From NCBI RefSeq assembly GCF_017355955.1, contig NZ_JAFFID010000001.1:2418001-2482000 (forward strand): a DNA stretch of 64,000 nucleotides, given 5' to 3'. Under the pieces are notes generated by a model that saw only the letters and a list, made by a program, of their open reading frames with translations, did no database searches and was not told where the DNA came from. A program made the translations under genes and the position numbers. Position 1 is the stretch's first letter. Every line of letters starts with the position of its first letter. Origin of the DNA: Sabulibacter ruber. GTDB taxonomy: Bacteria; Bacteroidota; Bacteroidia; Cytophagales; Hymenobacteraceae. Below, piece after piece: positions 40,324 to 46,611 of the stretch.

Positions 40324-41262
40324 ATGTCGCGCCGTTTAGCCCTTATTGACCTTGGAACCAATACGTTTCACCTGCTAATTGTTGAACTCAACTCTGACGG
40401 CGTGCAGCAGACGCTTTATAAAACCAAGATTCCGGTAAAGTTGGGCGAAGGTGGCATCAGCAAAGGCGAGATCACCCCGGAGGCCCGCGAACGCGGTTTA
40501 CGCACGCTGAAGGAATTCAAGGAGATTATGGCGCAGCATCACGTGGAAGACGTGAAAGCCACCGCTACCAGCGCCCTGCGCAACGCCAGCAACGGAGCCG
40601 AGGTGGTGAAAGCCATCAAAGAACAAACCGGTATTGACGTGGAGGTGATCTCCGGTGCCCGCGAGGCAGAGCTGATTTTCAAAGGCGTGCAACTGGCCAT
40701 GCAGGTAGGCCCCAAACCGGTGCTGGTCATGGACATTGGCGGCGGCAGCATAGAATTCATCATCGGGACGGACAAAGGCATTCTCTGGAAGAAAAGCTTC
40801 GAGATTGGAGCCCAGCGACTGCTGGACAAGTTCTACCCAGACCAGGAGCAGCCTATCCAACCCGAGCAGGTGAAAGCCCTGCGCCATTACCTGCAAGACC
40901 ACCTGCAGAAACTCACCGCAGCCGTGCTGCAACACCAACCCGAGGTGCTAATCGGGTCCTCCGGCACCTTTGACACCCTGGTAGACATGGACCTTGCCTC
41001 CCAAGGCCTCACCCGCGATATTGACGCAACCCCAGACATGGAATTAGGCCTGAACACTTTCAACCGCCAATACAAAGAACTGCTGCAAAAGAACCGCGCC
41101 GAACGTCTGGCCATTCCCGGTATGCTGGCGATGCGGGTTGATATGATTGTAGTGGCCTCTGTTGCCATTGACTGGGTGCTGGAGAAGTATAACCTGGAGA
41201 AGATTCGGGTATCGGCGTATGCGTTGAAGGAAGGGATGCTGGCGGAGTTGTTGCAGCAATAA
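40324..41262 (+). CDS. Ppx/GppA phosphatase family protein
   Basis: A 312-residue exopolyphosphatase/guanosine pentaphosphatase-like protein of the ASKHA fold. LIDLGTNTFHLLIVE (phosphate 1) opens it, and MDIGGGSIEFIIG (phosphate 2) lies near residue 140. It ends after the core domain, without the HD-like C-terminal part of Escherichia coli Ppx (about 510 residues), as is common in Bacteroidota. It degrades polyphosphate or (p)ppGpp precursors; which one is not decidable here. A structured repeat starts 51 bases after its stop. Confidence 0.9.
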   Translation: MSRRLALIDLGTNTFHLLIVELNSDGVQQTLYKTKIPVKLGEGGISKGEITPEARERGLRTLKEFKEIMAQHHVEDVKATATSALRNASNGAEVVKAIKEQTGIDVEVISGAREAELIFKGVQLAMQVGPKPVLVMDIGGGSIEFIIGTDKGILWKKSFEIGAQRLLDKFYPDQEQPIQPEQVKALRHYLQDHLQKLTAAVLQHQPEVLIGSSGTFDTLVDMDLASQGLTRDIDATPDMELGLNTFNRQYKELLQKNRAERLAIPGMLAMRVDMIVVASVAIDWVLEKYNLEKIRVSAYALKEGMLAELLQQ

Positions 41263-41313
41263 TTTGCTTGCTGCATTGTGCGTATTGTTTTTTGCTTTCG
41301 CCAGCGAATTGCC

Positions 41314-41486
41314 GCTTGTCTATGGATTTATGGGCTACTTTTTCCATAGCAGGCGATATGCGCTCACGGCCGCGGGGCCCCGTCTTCCGCGCTCGCGCTG
41401 CTGTTTTAGCCTTGGCCAGCAGGCCTGCCGCATGCGCGGCACCAGGTCTAAAACAAAGGCGCTCACCCGAAAGACTGGAATAAGGG
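41314..41486 (+). repeat. 173-base structured element, copy A
   Basis: Begins GCTTGTCTATGGATTTATG, has the block GATATGCGCTCACGGCCGCG, and ends GAAAGACTGGAATAAGGG. A variable middle keeps self-complementarity (TGTTTTAG paired with CTAAAACA, then GCCGCATGCGCGGC). Copy B is at 44742-44915, inverted. Both copies follow a gene stop on the same strand. Confidence 0.85.
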
Positions 41487-41544
41487 AAAGTAGTAGAAGT
41501 AGAAGCAGAAGCAGTAATGATGTAATCATGTGATGGTGGAACCG

Positions 41545-41639
41545 TAGAGACAAGGCAGTGCCTTGTCTCTATCACGCATTGCCTTACATGGTTCAAGTCT
41601 GTGACTTGGACCTACCATGATGGCAGTTTGCAACTGCCG
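41545..41639. repeat. Cluster of three small hairpins
   Basis: TAGAGACAAGG...CCTTGTCTCTA (41545-41571), a second imperfect hairpin with GGTTCAAGTC and GACTTGGACC (41587-41619), and GGCAGTTTGCAACTGCC (about 41621-41637), one after another. They look like repeat-derived sequence and not terminators of a gene. Confidence 0.7.
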
Positions 41640-41672
41640 TGAGGCTAAGTTTTGAAATACGCTTGCTGATCC

Positions 41673-41708
41673 GCTGGCGCGAGCCTCCGGCTCGTGTCCG
41701 CACGCATT
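41673..41708 (+). repeat. GCTGGCGCGAGC repeat, copy 3
   Basis: Shares GCTGGCGCGAGC and TCCGCACGCATT with the copies at 13.5 and 13.8 kb. The hairpin here is CGAGCCTCCGGCTCG; compared with CGAGCGTCCCGCTCG, the last base pair of the stem is swapped, a compensatory change. Confidence 0.85.
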
Positions 41709-41813
41709 CCAGAAAAGCTTCGTTAGATACTAAGGGTACTCTCATCAATTAACTCAAAACCTTTCTGTACTTCCTGATTGTCAAGATTTCTAAACTGCGT
41801 TCCCAACCGCAGA

Positions 41814-41851
41814 GTCCCCCTTTGAAGGGGGTGAAGGGGGATGTTTACACC
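41814..41851 (+). repeat. CCCCCTTTGAAGGGGG repeat, copy 1
   Basis: A palindromic CCCCCTTTGAAGGGGG core plus GGGGGATGTTTACACC. It is inverted relative to the copy at 44639-44675, so the pair flanks the TPR gene. Confidence 0.85.
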
Positions 41852-41868
41852 CGCTGAACCTACTTCCA

Positions 41869-41903
41869 TTTTCAAGCTCTTTTCTACAAAAAAGAGCTAA
41901 AAC
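41869..41903. repeat. 3'-end palindrome family member
   Basis: AGCTCTTTT and AAAAGAGCT arms around CTAC, followed by AAAAC, downstream of the TPR gene terminator. Confidence 0.5.
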
Positions 41904-41942
41904 AGAAATCCACTTATCAATACTTCTACTTCCATATAAACA

Positions 41943-41978
41943 GAAAGCGCCTCTTCTGCAAGCAAAAGAGGCGCTTTC
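41943..41978. terminator. Terminator of the TPR gene
   Basis: GAAAGCGCCTCTT and AAGAGGCGCTTTC perfect arms with a 10-base loop, 20 bases after the stop (minus strand). Confidence 0.85.
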
Positions 41979-41997
41979 AATTCTAGTTTATTCCAAT

Positions 41998-44361
41998 CTA
42001 AGTCAGCTTTTTGAACTGCTTCTGGTAAGCCTTGTTCAGCTTTTTCAAATCCTTGTTGCCAGCAGTGTAGGTGTTGGCCAGTTGCTTGTAATCCGCTTTG
42101 GGGTTGGTTTGGGCGTCTCGGGTGGCGAGTTGCTGGCCTACTTGTTCCTGCAGTTGGTTCAGGTTGTATTTGGTGTACTTCAGGGAAACCAGGCGTTTTA
42201 CCAGGTCTAAGGAACCAGCGGCATCTCCGTTGGACGCAGTGTGCCGAGCTGCCTCAGCTACGAAGGCTTTGTTCTCGTGGGCCATGGCAAAGGTGAGCAG
42301 GGGCTGGTGCCCGAGGCCGAAACGAGTCACCTCGGTTTCTTCAAAATGGCGGCTGGCTTGCTGATATATTTTCACAGCTTCGGCCATGTTGTTCTGGCTG
42401 ATCAACTCATTAGCTTTCTGCAGCAGCTCCTGATAATGGGCCGGGGCATCAATGCGGGTCAACTCCACATCGGCGGTAGCGAAGGAAATGGCGCAGCCTC
42501 CGTTTTGTTTGGTGGCGGCAATGGCTTTATCCAGTTCGGCGGCAGCTTGGGCAAACTGGCGCTGCCCGCTCAGTTGCAGAGAGCGTTGGTAGTGCTGGTC
42601 ATAGGTAGCCTGGGCATTGGCACACTCCTGCGAGAAGATGCCTTGGCTCAGGGCCCGGAACTTACCATCCAGTTCTTTGTCGTTCACCAGTCCGTACCGG
42701 ATCTGCAGGTTGGTCACCTCTGACGCGATGGTGCGGGCTTGAGGCAGTTTGTTCGAACTGGCTTGCAGTTGTCCCTCGGCAATTTTGGTTAGGATTACCG
42801 GACGGGCGGCCTGCCGAAGCAGTTTCTCCGCATCGGTTTGCGGGGTCAGGTTATACTCGCTGGCCAGGCTTTTCCCTTTCTCAAAGGCTGTCAATGCAGC
42901 ACTGTATTGCTTTGTTTGAAGTGCTTTGCGGCCCTCGGCCATGTAGCCCAGATAGAATTGCTGCTGCACATCGCGCATTAACGTGGTAGCGGCGGCATCT
43001 GAGTCAATGGCGGTTTTGTTGTTGCGGGCGTACTGCTGGGCTTCCTTGGCCAGTTTCTCAGCCTGGCTCAGGTTTTTCTGGTTCAGAGCCTGGCGACCGT
43101 CTTGCAGCAAATCGTCGTAAATCCCGTTTTTGGCGAAGACAATGCCTTTCTCCCACAACTCTGCCCGGCAGCGTAGGCTGGAAATGCTTCGGCAGAAATC
43201 CTGGGCTTGCTCAAACTGCTCCAGCGCCTGGCGGTATTTGCCCTGGTTGTTCAGTTGCTCACCCTCCTGCACGTACTCGTTCTGGATGTCCAGCGCCAGT
43301 TCCTGCCCAAACCGATAGGTCTCCGGATCAACCTGCATGCGGTTCAAAAGATCACGGGTGCGTTGGGCGGCTTCTTTCAGGTAACCAGCTTTGAAGTCCA
43401 GGCGGGCCAGTTGCAGGTGCGCCGGCGCAAAGGCGGGGTTGGCCTGCAAAGAGCGCTCAAAGAACTCCCGCCCGGCCCGGGTGTTGCCGTTCATGGCCAG
43501 TTCCAGACCACGGGTGTAGTAGATCTCGGGCAGGCGCGCCCACATCTGATCCAGGGCCAACCGGCGTTCTCTCATGCGCACTTCCAGGTCTTTTGCCCGA
43601 CGGCGTAACTGCACCGGGTCATGCCGGTTCAAGCCTAGTTCCCGCTCCATGCGGCTGTCGTATAATTGGCTCAGATCCCGCTCCAGGCTCTTTAACCGAT
43701 CGCCGTGCACGGCAAGATGGTCTATGTCATTGGGGTTGATGGTCTGCAGTCCCCGGGAAAGTTCGGCTAACCGGGCATCGGCGGCATAGTATCGGTCTAC
43801 CAGGGTTAATCGGTTCCGCACGGCACCGTCATTCCCCGCAGAAAAGCCGAGCTTTTTCTCCACCACCCGCAGTTTGTATCCCACAAAATCTGAGGTGTCT
43901 TTTAAGGTAGTCTGCACCAGCATGGTGGCGCCATCTTCGCTGATGTGCTTGTTGGAAACATCAAAAGTCTGCAGCACTTTGTCTTCGCGGCCCAGCAACT
44001 GCACCCTGGCATTGATCACGGTGGGCGTTAATGCATCAGCAAAATCGAACTCCCGGAATAGCACTTGTTCCCGCACCCGCACGTTCCGCACCGAGGCGTT
44101 CACCGTTACCTGGCCTCCGGTACGCGTGATTTTCTCCTGCTGCTCAAATTCCACGGGTAGCACCAGTTTCCCCGACCGGTGATGGTTGTCTCTCCCCAGT
44201 TGCTGCACTAAAGCATTCAGTTGCGAATTGGCGAAGCTGGAAATAGACATCGTTTCCTGCCGGTTCTGCTCATAGAGTACCTTGGTTGAAGACTGCGCCT
44301 CGGCCTGCCCGCTCCAGAAGAGCAGCGAAACGAAGAGGAAGGAGAGTAAGCGTGCTTTCAT
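41998..44361 (-). CDS. Secreted TPR-repeat protein
   Basis: A 787-residue protein with a signal peptide (residues 1-22, ending QAEA). The first ~190 residues are strand-rich (VTVNASVRNVRVREQVLFREF). From about residue 280 to 700 it is mostly helical repeats of the TPR type, for example LAMNGNTRAGREFFERSLQANPAFAPAHLQLARL and NQGKYRQALEQFEQAQDF. No enzyme motif. It probably scaffolds partners in the periplasm. Two nested pairs of inverted repeats flank it (41314-41851 and 44639-44915). No co-directional gene is close, so it is its own unit. Confidence 0.75.
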   Translation of the reverse strand: MKARLLSFLFVSLLFWSGQAEAQSSTKVLYEQNRQETMSISSFANSQLNALVQQLGRDNHHRSGKLVLPVEFEQQEKITRTGGQVTVNASVRNVRVREQVLFREFDFADALTPTVINARVQLLGREDKVLQTFDVSNKHISEDGATMLVQTTLKDTSDFVGYKLRVVEKKLGFSAGNDGAVRNRLTLVDRYYAADARLAELSRGLQTINPNDIDHLAVHGDRLKSLERDLSQLYDSRMERELGLNRHDPVQLRRRAKDLEVRMRERRLALDQMWARLPEIYYTRGLELAMNGNTRAGREFFERSLQANPAFAPAHLQLARLDFKAGYLKEAAQRTRDLLNRMQVDPETYRFGQELALDIQNEYVQEGEQLNNQGKYRQALEQFEQAQDFCRSISSLRCRAELWEKGIVFAKNGIYDDLLQDGRQALNQKNLSQAEKLAKEAQQYARNNKTAIDSDAAATTLMRDVQQQFYLGYMAEGRKALQTKQYSAALTAFEKGKSLASEYNLTPQTDAEKLLRQAARPVILTKIAEGQLQASSNKLPQARTIASEVTNLQIRYGLVNDKELDGKFRALSQGIFSQECANAQATYDQHYQRSLQLSGQRQFAQAAAELDKAIAATKQNGGCAISFATADVELTRIDAPAHYQELLQKANELISQNNMAEAVKIYQQASRHFEETEVTRFGLGHQPLLTFAMAHENKAFVAEAARHTASNGDAAGSLDLVKRLVSLKYTKYNLNQLQEQVGQQLATRDAQTNPKADYKQLANTYTAGNKDLKKLNKAYQKQFKKLT

Positions 44362-44498
44362 AATATTAGCAGTTTCTGATATTCAGCAAAAGGCAAAATC
44401 CGTTCCAGAAACATGGCCGGAAGAACCTTTATTTAGAAGATGCCGTCACGCCTCTTTCAGTTGCTTTCCCTTCAGAAATTAGTTGCGTGTAAAATGGT

Positions 44499-44534
44499 GT
44501 TTTAAGGGTGTTTTGCGGAAAATAGGTTCTAAAC
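44499..44534. repeat. 3'-end palindrome family member (degenerate)
   Basis: GTTTTAAGGG and ATAGGTTCTAAAC around TTTTGCGGAAAA. It lies upstream of the TPR gene, so it is one of few members not directly behind a stop. Confidence 0.45.
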
Positions 44535-44638
44535 CCAAAGGTAAGACACGCAGCCCGCCAGTCTCCCCTAGTTTGATGCGGTTAGGATTTCTAAAAGTTT
44601 GAGGTATCGTTGCGAATCTCTATAGAGTTGGACCAGCA

Positions 44639-44675
44639 GGTGTAAACATCCCCCTACCCCCTTCAAAGGGGGACT
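44639..44675 (-). repeat. CCCCCTTTGAAGGGGG repeat, copy 2 (inverted)
   Basis: Reverse complement of the copy at 41814-41851, including the GGTGTAAACATCCCCC side sequence; one or two differences. Confidence 0.85.
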
Positions 44676-44686
44676 TTCTTAATAGA

Positions 44687-44719
44687 AGACCTCACAGGTT
44701 TTCAAAACCTGTGAGGTCT
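44687..44719. repeat. AGACCTCACAGG palindrome
   Basis: A 33-base perfect palindrome (16-base arms, AGACCTCACAGGTTTT) around one base. It sits between copy B of the structured element and the CCCCC repeat. Confidence 0.85.
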
Positions 44720-44741
44720 GAGGCGTTCCTACCAGCGTATT

Positions 44742-44915
44742 CCCCAATTCCAGTCTTTCGGGCGAGCGCCTTAGCAGGTTCCGGTGCCGACAGGCATTGC
44801 GACCGCCAGGGAGCAAAGGAAGCTGGTACAGCGCGAGGCGGGAAGACGGGGCCTCGCGGCCGTGAGCGCATATCGGGAGCGATGCAAAGAGCCGCTCATA
44901 AATCCATAGACAAGC
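44742..44915 (-). repeat. 174-base structured element, copy B (inverted)
   Basis: Matches copy A (41314-41486) on the minus strand in its start, its middle block and its end. The strong hairpin CGCGAGGC...GCCTCGCG is perfect here. The variable middle pairs AGCTTCC with GGAACCTGCT. It lies 41 bases after the stop of the MuiA-like gene. A TGA stops the frame that is open in copy A. Confidence 0.85.
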
Positions 44916-44955
44916 CGCTGCTACGCCAGCATCAGCAGGTTGCAAATACGGTTAT

Positions 44956-46611
44956 TTACAACCCACTCACCTGTTTATTCTTCGGATACTTCACTACATA
45001 CCGAAGGGTGCGCTTCACCGTCTCATTCGGCTTCACCGATACTTGCCAGGTGACTTTCCCAGAATCTTTGTCCAGTTTGCCGCCGTTGAGGTCCACATCT
45101 TCCAGCTCAATCTCAGAGGTAGTGCTCATGGGAATCTGGTCTTCCAGGGTGATGGTCACCGGCTGGGCTTTGGTGTTCCGAAGGCTGATCTCGTAGCCAA
45201 ATTGTTCTTTGATGTTGCTGCCAAGGGTGGAGCGTTTCTGGTAATCTTTCAGGCGTTCGCGCTGCACCACCACGTTCTGGTCCCGGCCCAAAGAAAGGGT
45301 AAGCGTATCGCGGGTTTGCTCTGGGTTGAGGAAGGATTTACCGGTGAAAGTGCCCGCCAAAAACACGTTGGCCTCGCCGGGCAACAGTTTCAGGTTTTCC
45401 CAATTGGTCAGGTAGGCCACCAGAAACGCCGTAGGGTCCAACTTAGGCACAACGGTGTGGGCGTAAGATGTGGTAAGGCTATGCTGCTGGATGTCTACGG
45501 TGTGCGGCTTCCCGTCTGACGGCACACTGAACGGAATCCCAATTTTGAACTCGGCGGCCAGGGTGGTGACCACGGCCTTGGTGAATTCTGAAATACTTGC
45601 TGATGCGGCGGCCATAGGTTTCTCTTCTACGGCATAACCGGTCACTGCCACTTCACCTAACTCTCTGCTATCATCCCGTTTTGACCTGCTCACCTGTACT
45701 CCCGCCGCTCTGCCTTGCAACATGTCGCTAATTGATTTAGGCTGCACAATTCCTAATTGCTGAGGAAATAAATCCGGTTTCTGCGCTCCTTCAGCCGGAT
45801 TAGTGGTCGCTAAAGTCAGTTGCACGTTGTCCCAGTTCACACCGGTGTTCTGCCGCACGTTGGCCTTGTATTGCAATTGTACCGGTCCCTGGTTGCCGCT
45901 AGCCCTGAGGTCATAGATAGGTTCCCAACCAGCATTCAGCACTAAGTAGGTTACTTCTAATCCTACCTGGGCACGAGACTGCGCCTGCACTGCCACAATC
46001 ACGCGGTTGTTCGCTTTTTGGTTCTGCCGGGTTTGGTTTACCTGGTTGTTGAACTGGTCCTGCCGCTCCCGCAGGAAAACTAATTGCAGGTCTACTGCCT
46101 GAATTTCTTTCCGGATGGCCAGTAAACGGGTGCGGTAATAATCCGCTACTTCTTTGAGGCGGGCCGCGGTGAGTCCGGTTTGGGAGCCGCCAAGGTTCTG
46201 GTTGGCCTGCAGCAAAGCCTCCTCCTTCTCTAAGACCTCGCGCTGATCAGTAAGCGTTCTGATGCGTCCGTTATAGCTTTGTAGCGAGTCCTCCAGCCGT
46301 TGCAGCTCGCGGGGCTTGGTGGCGTTCTGCAGGAAATTCCGCTCGTACCGCACCGAGAGCAGCGTCACGCTGCCCGTGGGGTTTACCTGCACGCTGTGCT
46401 CGTCCAGTTGCGCGGGCAGTCCTTCCAAAACCAGTTCGGTTACGCCCGGCTCTACGGAGGTTCTTCCGGTATTGGTCACTTGCGCGCGGTTCAGGAACAC
46501 GGTTACGGCTTTCACCTGGGTGTTCATCATTTCCTGTTTTTGCGCCGAAACAGGAAAAACAAGCCAGAAACAGCTTACCAGAAGGCCGAGGCCAACGCGA
46601 ATCAGGGTCAT
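44956..46611 (-). CDS. MuiA-like DUF4139/DUF4140 protein with a TonB-plug-like insert
   Basis: A 551-residue protein with a signal peptide (residues 1-23, ending VSAQ). The N-terminal DUF4140 region (VKAVTVFLNRAQVTNTGRTSVEPG) leads into a coiled coil (about residues 90-180), then a DUF4139 beta domain with LNAGWEPIYDLRASG and SMSTTSEIELEDVDLNGG-type strands. This is the family of the mucoidy inhibitor MuiA. Between its halves (about residues 290-327) sits SISDMLQGRAAGVQV, then RELGEVAVTGY, which closely resembles the plug signature of SusC-type TonB receptors. Function unknown. A structured repeat follows the stop. Confidence 0.75.
   Translation of the reverse strand: MTLIRVGLGLLVSCFWLVFPVSAQKQEMMNTQVKAVTVFLNRAQVTNTGRTSVEPGVTELVLEGLPAQLDEHSVQVNPTGSVTLLSVRYERNFLQNATKPRELQRLEDSLQSYNGRIRTLTDQREVLEKEEALLQANQNLGGSQTGLTAARLKEVADYYRTRLLAIRKEIQAVDLQLVFLRERQDQFNNQVNQTRQNQKANNRVIVAVQAQSRAQVGLEVTYLVLNAGWEPIYDLRASGNQGPVQLQYKANVRQNTGVNWDNVQLTLATTNPAEGAQKPDLFPQQLGIVQPKSISDMLQGRAAGVQVSRSKRDDSRELGEVAVTGYAVEEKPMAAASASISEFTKAVVTTLAAEFKIGIPFSVPSDGKPHTVDIQQHSLTTSYAHTVVPKLDPTAFLVAYLTNWENLKLLPGEANVFLAGTFTGKSFLNPEQTRDTLTLSLGRDQNVVVQRERLKDYQKRSTLGSNIKEQFGYEISLRNTKAQPVTITLEDQIPMSTTSEIELEDVDLNGGKLDKDSGKVTWQVSVKPNETVKRTLRYVVKYPKNKQVSGL

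Follow-up and report, generated by a model that had tools for sequence, protein, structure and literature searches.

The 64,000-nt stretch of Sabulibacter ruber DNA analysed here (the window) is part of contig C111 in a 6.16-Mb genome. It contains two inverted copies, A and B, of a structured element on either side of a TPR gene, one behind the Ppx gene and the other behind the MuiA gene. We describe the fold of this element, its copies in this and other genomes, and the exchanges among them; the element probably represents a new family of small interspersed elements homogenised by ectopic gene conversion. The features of the locus are listed below, with the gene names given in an earlier reading of the DNA (the sequence-only reading).

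40324-41262, plus strand: Ppx gene, upstream of copy A (named without a family search)
41294-41488, plus strand: copy A, beta subtype, with 5' domain 41294-41359 (start approximate) and core 41360-41488
41368-41379, plus strand: hairpin P2 of copy A, GGCC (41368-41371), loop GCGG, GGCC (41376-41379)
41380-41389, plus strand: 5' strand of stem P3 of copy A, CCGTCTTCCG
41400-41456, plus strand: apical module of copy A, beta subtype, TGTTTTAGCC ... GGTCTAAAACA
41468-41478, plus strand: 3' strand of stem P3 of copy A, CGAAAGACTGG
41998-44361, minus strand: TPR gene, between the copies
44740-44935, minus strand: copy B, alpha subtype (the end at about 44935 is approximate)
44750-44760, minus strand: 3' strand of stem P3 of copy B, CGAAAGACTGG
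44840-44849, minus strand: 5' strand of stem P3 of copy B, CCGTCTTCCC
44850-44861, minus strand: hairpin P2 of copy B, GGCC, loop GCGA, GGCC
44956-46611, minus strand: MuiA gene, upstream of copy B (named without a family search)

The inverted pair was located in the window as two sets of complementary arms, one of 90 nt (41311-41400 and 44829-44918, 84% complementary) and one of 33 nt (41456-41488 and 44740-44772, 91% complementary). The sequence-only reading had correctly recognised the element, but the extent of 173 or 174 bases that it gave is too short because the unit also has, ahead of the core, a 5' domain of about 66 nt. It had placed the copies 41-51 bases behind gene stops; from the Ppx stop (41262) and the MuiA stop (44956) to the element starts it used, the distances are 51 and 40 nt. 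Its remark that a copy lies behind a gene and on that gene's strand is true of A and B, but of only 63 of the 109 copies that could be scored across genomes.

Anatomy and fold of the element

The unit of Rufibacter is about 190 bp long. It consists of the 5' domain, a short hairpin (P2), and a long hairpin (P3-P4) whose apical module is replaceable. The 5' domain is loosely conserved and has two main versions in an alignment of the 30 S. ruber copies; no conserved pairs were found in it, and a sequence resembling it precedes the core in other genera too. P2 reads GCGCTCACGGCC-GCGG-GGCC in the S. ruber copies and has the general form GGCC-GCRR-GGCC. In stem P3, CC-GTCTT-CC pairs with GG-AAGAC-TGG, GTCTT/AAGAC closing the P3-P4 hairpin, and in stem P4 CGC-CT pairs with AGGCG. 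The motifs GCGCTC and AGGCGC are constant in Rufibacter. We sorted the apical modules into subtypes, which we named alpha to epsilon. The S. ruber genome has 28 alpha copies, one beta (copy A), and one gamma (L029). The 45 pattern calls in stretches of the sister species G002, some of them possibly spurious, include 33 gamma, 7 delta, and 5 unclassified copies. Alpha-like modules are also found in other genera.

Compensatory changes across genera and families confirm the predicted fold. The alignment made from sequence only (A4: 22 alpha-type copies of the genera g1, g3, and g4) has 31 pairs, including an apical three-way junction, and 89.7% of its 678 cells are paired. Seventeen of the 31 pairs changed on both sides, a number reached by none of 500 shuffles (mean 8.8), and slid controls had at most 7 pairs with double changes. 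The weakest part of A4 is the set of five distal P4 pairs, unpaired in 6 to 16 of the 22 copies, and 97 of the 500 shuffles reach its number of further pair types. Among 34 Rufibacter copies (A1), six P3 pairs changed on both sides, including columns 34/122, which are unpaired in 29 of the 34. The count of double-changed pairs is by itself unremarkable in A1 (reached by 30 of 500 shuffles), but no shuffle reaches its number of paired cells or its covariation score. A2 gathers 36 copies of several genera; 97.2% of its 646 cells are paired, and double changes are seen in 9 of its 18 pairs.

Three further alignments (A5, A6, and A8) include more, and more distant, copies; they were fitted to the model and hence lean towards it. 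In A5 (92 copies), 97.9% of the cells are paired. A8, whose 42 copies reach other families, has 91 cells with double changes, against 30.7 in the shuffled alignments (0/500). Its cells paired, double-change cells, and covariation score are beyond all 500 shuffles, whereas its double-change pairs were reached by 10 and its pair types by 69 of them. The pair G30-C263 of A8 is invariant (42/42), and neighbouring pairs show up to four pair types. The proposal that the variable middle stays self-complementary is thus borne out by covariation in A1, A2, A4, A5, A6, and A8 and, with 30 copies in the same genome, so is that of a multi-copy element selected for its secondary structure.

We then considered which molecule folds. 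Selection on an RNA is expected to tolerate G-U more than A-C on the transcribed strand. Among pairs that are paired in at least 75% of the copies, and counted without a control family, we observed no such asymmetry on the oriented strand (24 G-U versus 26 A-C in A8, 7 versus 11 in A4). Because G-U is not in excess, a folded DNA strand appears at least as well supported as an RNA.

Spread, placement, and persistence of the copies

The covariance model identified the 30 copies of S. ruber, the weakest with E = 1.1e-15, and 52, 47, 46, and 45 copies in G006, G013, G009, and G002, respectively; further copies, in this genome and in relatives, thus exist as the sequence-only reading had anticipated. 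A 29-base pattern of the core occurs in at least 107 stretches of named genomes, and all 80 among the matches listed are from Rufibacter, the genus with which this genome groups by kinship. The element was matched in each of the 16 Rufibacter genomes and, with model R1, in 65 of 200 genomes of the family and 14 of 291 of an earlier sample of the order. Model R2 matched 39 of 390 genomes of the order; its counts in rich genomes are lower bounds, since at most 8 candidates per genome were scored, and the strict filters may miss weak matches. Eleven of the 39 are outside the family, with 1-5 matches each, and sequences were read for four of them (G034, G362, G217, and G430). In family f11, four genomes of one genus have one match each, and in two of them, G034 and G362, the element is placed alike, upstream of homologous genes. 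In a sample of the phylum, R2 matched 5 of 395 genomes; three copies in G880, which belongs to another order, show by eye the complete architecture. Model R3 matched 4 of 395 genomes in a sample of the class. We regard the match in G628 (8.8e-5) as a candidate and rejected the one in G540 (1.7e-4) as chance, since by eye it lies inside a hemC-like coding frame. The distribution is patchy even inside one genus, with G217 positive and G272 negative. In summary, the family is probably old and has a patchy distribution across Bacteroidia.

We studied the placement of the 109 copies, out of 144 called by pattern, that had enough flank and two neighbouring open reading frames (ORFs). Of these, 43 are flanked by convergent genes, 12 by divergent genes, and the rest lie in tandem gaps (34 antisense, 20 sense), whereas the background of 107 gaps of at least 300 bp in G002 comprises 24 convergent, 54 tandem, and 29 divergent gaps. 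Hence, convergent gaps are enriched (p = 0.008) and divergent ones depleted (p = 0.003), with no sense preference in tandem gaps (p = 0.08). These counts are approximate because a simple length rule defined the ORFs and the copies belong to several species. All seven pairs of copies less than 700 nt apart are tail-to-tail, with 82-441 nt between them (L032, L039, and L073 found by pattern; L046, L050, L223, and L331 by model). A pattern call at L118 (3792-3964) was rejected as coding sequence by eye.

The sites are old, and many have been kept for long in a fixed orientation. An element is present at site A, the gap between Ppx and TPR, in 10 of the 16 Rufibacter genomes, and at site B, on the MuiA side, in 6 of them; each site has a single orientation, and the occupancies are independent of each other. 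The proposal that recombination between the arms could invert the TPR gene is unsupported because the order and orientation of Ppx and TPR are identical in all 16 genomes, so that TPR is inverted relative to Ppx in none. For 20 of the 30 S. ruber loci, the corresponding locus of G002 is also occupied by an element, and the orientation agrees in all of them (20/20); element-free sites of G002 are under-sampled, as its stretches cover the surroundings of 42 of the 45 copies plus about 0.8 Mb. Locus L006 is element-free in three species (G014, G004, and G003), where the gap from flank to flank is about 110-170 bp, compared with about 590-610 bp in S. ruber.

Concerted evolution of the apical module

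The result that is new here is concerted evolution at fixed chromosomal sites: the apical subtype differs at 19 of the 20 loci matched between S. ruber and G002, where the structural module was replaced. The identity of the apical module, measured in 19 of the 20 orthologous pairs (L004 was left out), is 0.53 between orthologues, 0.53 between non-orthologous pairs, and 0.91 between S. ruber paralogues. Accordingly, 18 of the 19 S. ruber copies are closer to their paralogues than to their orthologue. Site A provides an example: the sequence hardly differs in the flank, but inside the element P3-P4 is of another subtype, with both strands of P3 changed together. The simplest scenario would be that gamma and delta swept through the lineage of G002; this would fit the presence of alpha-like modules in other genera and the single gamma copy of S. 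ruber.

The 28 alpha copies of S. ruber reveal extensive exchange because all four combinations occur in 357 of 465 pairs of variable sites, to which recurrent mutation may add. In spite of this exchange, the alleles of the 5' and 3' strands of P3 are coupled (23, 0, 1, and 4 copies of the four combinations, p = 2.4e-4), whereas a marker between the two strands shows no clear coupling with either of them (p = 0.21 and 0.14). Only copy B has a mismatched combination: its P3 strands come from two different alleles, and its inner P3 pairs are broken. Copy B looks like a conversion tract that ended inside the element.

The loops of the gamma subtype are a particular case. We collected 127 distinct ones, the gamma copies including 33 from G002, 39 from Rufibacter sp. 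XAAS-G3-1, 10 from R. immobilis, and 12 from R. glacialis. Among copies of equal length (31/33, 30/39, 4/10, and 11/12, respectively), the entropy of the scaffold is 0.00-0.11 bits per position and that of the loop 0.52-0.78. The loops range from 34 to 38 nt and are mostly of 36 or 37 nt: 37 nt is the length of 32 of the 33 loops of G002, and 36 nt that of 30 of the 39 loops of XAAS-G3-1 and of 11 of the 12 of R. glacialis; the 10 loops of R. immobilis have 36-38 nt. They contain two variable stretches flanking a conserved CTCTTAG. The loops could have been guides to their own flanks, but in the 29 G002 and 30 XAAS-G3-1 copies with enough flank they match or pair with these no better than with the flanks of other copies (permutation p 0.12-0.89), and we rejected this idea. 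Their pairing with their own 5' domain gave no signal over the 5' domains of other copies either. Pairing within the loop shows at best a small excess in the two larger sets (mean folding z of -0.85 in G002 and -0.18 in XAAS-G3-1, against -1.53 in the 10 copies of R. immobilis and +0.43 in R. glacialis); the loops of R. immobilis may be partly paired. IS110 bridge RNAs and the omega RNAs of IscB/TnpB also combine a structured scaffold with variable loops. The present element differs from them in that A and B have Ppx, TPR, and MuiA as their large neighbouring ORFs, and in that the gamma loops do not match their own flanks. A speculative and rather improbable idea is that the gamma loops form a repertoire of recognition loops on one scaffold, kept by a genome-wide, gene-drive-like conversion in which a structure-dependent enzyme, acting on RNA or DNA, would overwrite old copies. 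The gamma loop is also possibly an unconstrained tip under rapid neutral drift.

Nature of the element and comparison with known repeats

We think it somewhat probable that the copies form a new family of structured interspersed elements, small and non-coding, which is old and patchy in its distribution and in which ectopic gene conversion homogenises the copies. Copies would be seeded rarely and in trans, as those of a non-autonomous mobile element, and the fold, of an RNA or of one DNA strand, would be what a mobilising or binding factor recognises. Later, the dispersed copies would undergo ectopic gene conversion, allowing one subtype to sweep through occupied sites, while selection would keep both strands of P3 matched. 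Any effect on neighbouring messenger RNAs would be secondary. Several observations weigh against this explanation. No mobilising enzyme was identified, and no copy was found in plasmids and phages (searched with blastn) or in viral contigs (searched with an exact 25-base pattern). We saw only long-term gain or loss of copies, no recent transposition, and at the element-free L006 sites the gap sequence is too diverged to place the junction and any target-site duplication. No terminal inverted repeats were found (the ends of A and B match at 11 and 12 of 20 positions at best), and the element is GC-rich (0.60-0.63, against 0.518 in the window). As for conversion, G002 has two coexisting subtypes as well as variable loops, so its paralogues are non-homogeneous and only 0.55 identical in the apical module; no concerted signal appears in the 5' domain, where 10 of 19 S. 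ruber copies are closer to paralogues than to their orthologue; and the coupling of the P3 strands rests on five copies with the minor allele. Finally, the alpha module common to three genera would also suit a functional RNA.

Such RNAs are the foremost alternative, which we regard as appreciably less probable: multi-copy functional small RNAs, with their own promoters or as parts of 3' untranslated regions, would offer an invariant scaffold to a protein partner, and concerted evolution would keep the copies matched, as in ribosomal RNA genes. The compensatory changes across genera and families, the persistence of sites, the low entropy of the gamma scaffold relative to its loop, the single matches in the f11 genus, and the similar placement in G034 and G362 all suit this possibility. 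It fits less well with the lack of G-U excess over A-C, the absence of sense preference in tandem gaps, and the 351 of 390 sampled genomes of the order without a match under strict filters; moreover, no promoter-like conserved block was seen by eye, no scan having been made.

Another possibility, which we find unlikely, is that the copies are protein-binding sites for chromosome organisation or the control of supercoiling, with hairpins extruded from DNA, as was proposed for REP/BIME. Structure without strand asymmetry, scattered positions, and the two motifs constant in Rufibacter are in line with it. On the other hand, the strands appear mixed along G006, as judged from a list of copies without a formal test, and a housekeeping role is unlikely because the element is absent from many relatives. 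It is very unlikely that these are ordinary bidirectional terminators or 3'-end hairpins that resemble each other: they are enriched between convergent genes, but there is no T-run after P3 (the 3' flank is mostly GGAATnGGGGAAA), 34 of the 109 copies are antisense to both neighbours, and a possible terminator of the TPR gene itself is a separate inverted repeat (41943-41978). Short protein-coding genes can be practically dismissed, as the sequence-only reading had anticipated: ORFs called mechanically cross copies, but no frame is conserved, since length differences break it even within one subtype, the cores of the 30 S. ruber copies (114, 118, 119, 120, and 122 nt) falling in all three classes modulo 3 (15, 13, and 2 copies).

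We compared the element with known families of repeats; it works in the manner of BOX, ERIC, and REP. It resembles miniature inverted-repeat transposable elements (MITEs) in being short and non-coding, with many intergenic copies, strong pairing, and an excess in convergent gaps, but it differs from them in its GC-richness and in showing no terminal inverted repeats. The ERIC element (127 bp) is comparable in size, likewise lies between genes and is non-coding, and has extended pairing. The likeness of ERIC and RU of enterobacteria is by description, and we set them apart without a sequence comparison; to our knowledge, ERIC shows no subtype sweeps of the present kind. The BOX element of Streptococcus pneumoniae is likewise a small, modular, and strongly folded interspersed repeat whose modules vary between copies, is over-represented between convergent genes, and transposes more slowly than insertion sequence elements (PMC3049150). 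The same source describes a convergent excess and a divergent shortage of BOX, RUP, and SPRITE, which Croucher and colleagues read as those of mobile, parasitic elements (PMC3049150). BOX has target-site duplications as well as terminal inverted repeats, and occurs chiefly in pneumococcus and close relatives (PMC3049150). In the present element we found no terminal repeats, compensatory changes in several families support the fold, and the two sister species have different modules at almost all of their shared sites.

REP/REPIN sequences are also structured intergenic repeats whose close pairs are inverted (PMC3733652), and gene conversion is raised for REP in the title of a 1988 review cited by PMC3733652 and PMC2267715. 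Unlike REP/RAYT systems, the element has about 190 bp rather than a palindrome of 20-40 nt, and no constant GTAG or CGTC tag: the CGTC at the start of P3 reads CGTTT in L046 and L050. A RAYT-like match (Y1_Tnp, E <= 0.001) is present in 26 of 29 genomes and absent from G007, which carries copies, so that RAYT is unsupported as an obligatory partner.

No Rfam family reached its gathering threshold in the window. Permissive scans of copies from several genera and families gave two sub-threshold matches that overlap an element, both judged to be chance: a microRNA family on L312 (23.2 bits, threshold 211) and a worm small RNA family that matched L339 on the strand opposite to the element (26.5 bits, threshold 44). 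The eight sub-threshold matches in the scan of the window lie off copies A and B and were also judged to be chance. Most of the Bacteroidetes motifs in a 2010 survey have Rfam numbers, and none of these matches the element (PMC2864571); those without numbers (e.g., Bacteroides-2 and GUCCY-hairpin) were left out of the comparison. In the literature we found no description of the element, most subscription journals and preprints being outside the scope of the search. We place it among small structured interspersed repeats and outside the named families because it lacks terminal repeats, AT-richness, the tag and size of REP, and a match in Rfam. It offers a natural system to measure ectopic gene conversion between dispersed sequences of about 190 bp in a bacterium, and it opens the question of what selection on the fold of a repeat serves: mobility, protein binding, or RNA function.

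Other repeats surround the two copies. A second inverted pair inside the first, of the sequence CCCCCTTTGAAGGGGG, exists as noticed earlier, but we attach no importance to its mirrored order; CCCCCTTTGAAGGGGG is a separate, nearly palindromic dispersed repeat unrelated to the element. It occurs four times in the window with at most one substitution (41814-41851, 44639-44675, 53089, and 53269) and three times in 0.79 Mb of G002. Behind copy A, a train of dispersed repeats (41544-41640) comprises a GTAGAGACAAGGCACTGCC palindrome, GTTCAAGTCTGTGACTTGGACCTA, and GCAGTTTGCAACTGCC; the palindrome also follows many other copies of the S. ruber genome, and part of the train is present many times in G014 and G004. 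The palindrome AGACCTCACAGGTTTTcAAAACCTGTGAGGTCT (44687-44719) is also found behind elements in other Rufibacter species. The hairpin behind TPR (41936-42021, minus strand) gave a PyrG_leader match of 31.9 bits (threshold 65, E 0.15) that we judged to be chance. MuiA is absent between TPR and an LDH-like gene in G002 (L186), G010 (L190), and G015 (L195). In G009 (L192), neither MuiA nor the LDH-like gene was found within the stretch, and the synteny from DapF to TPR is kept.

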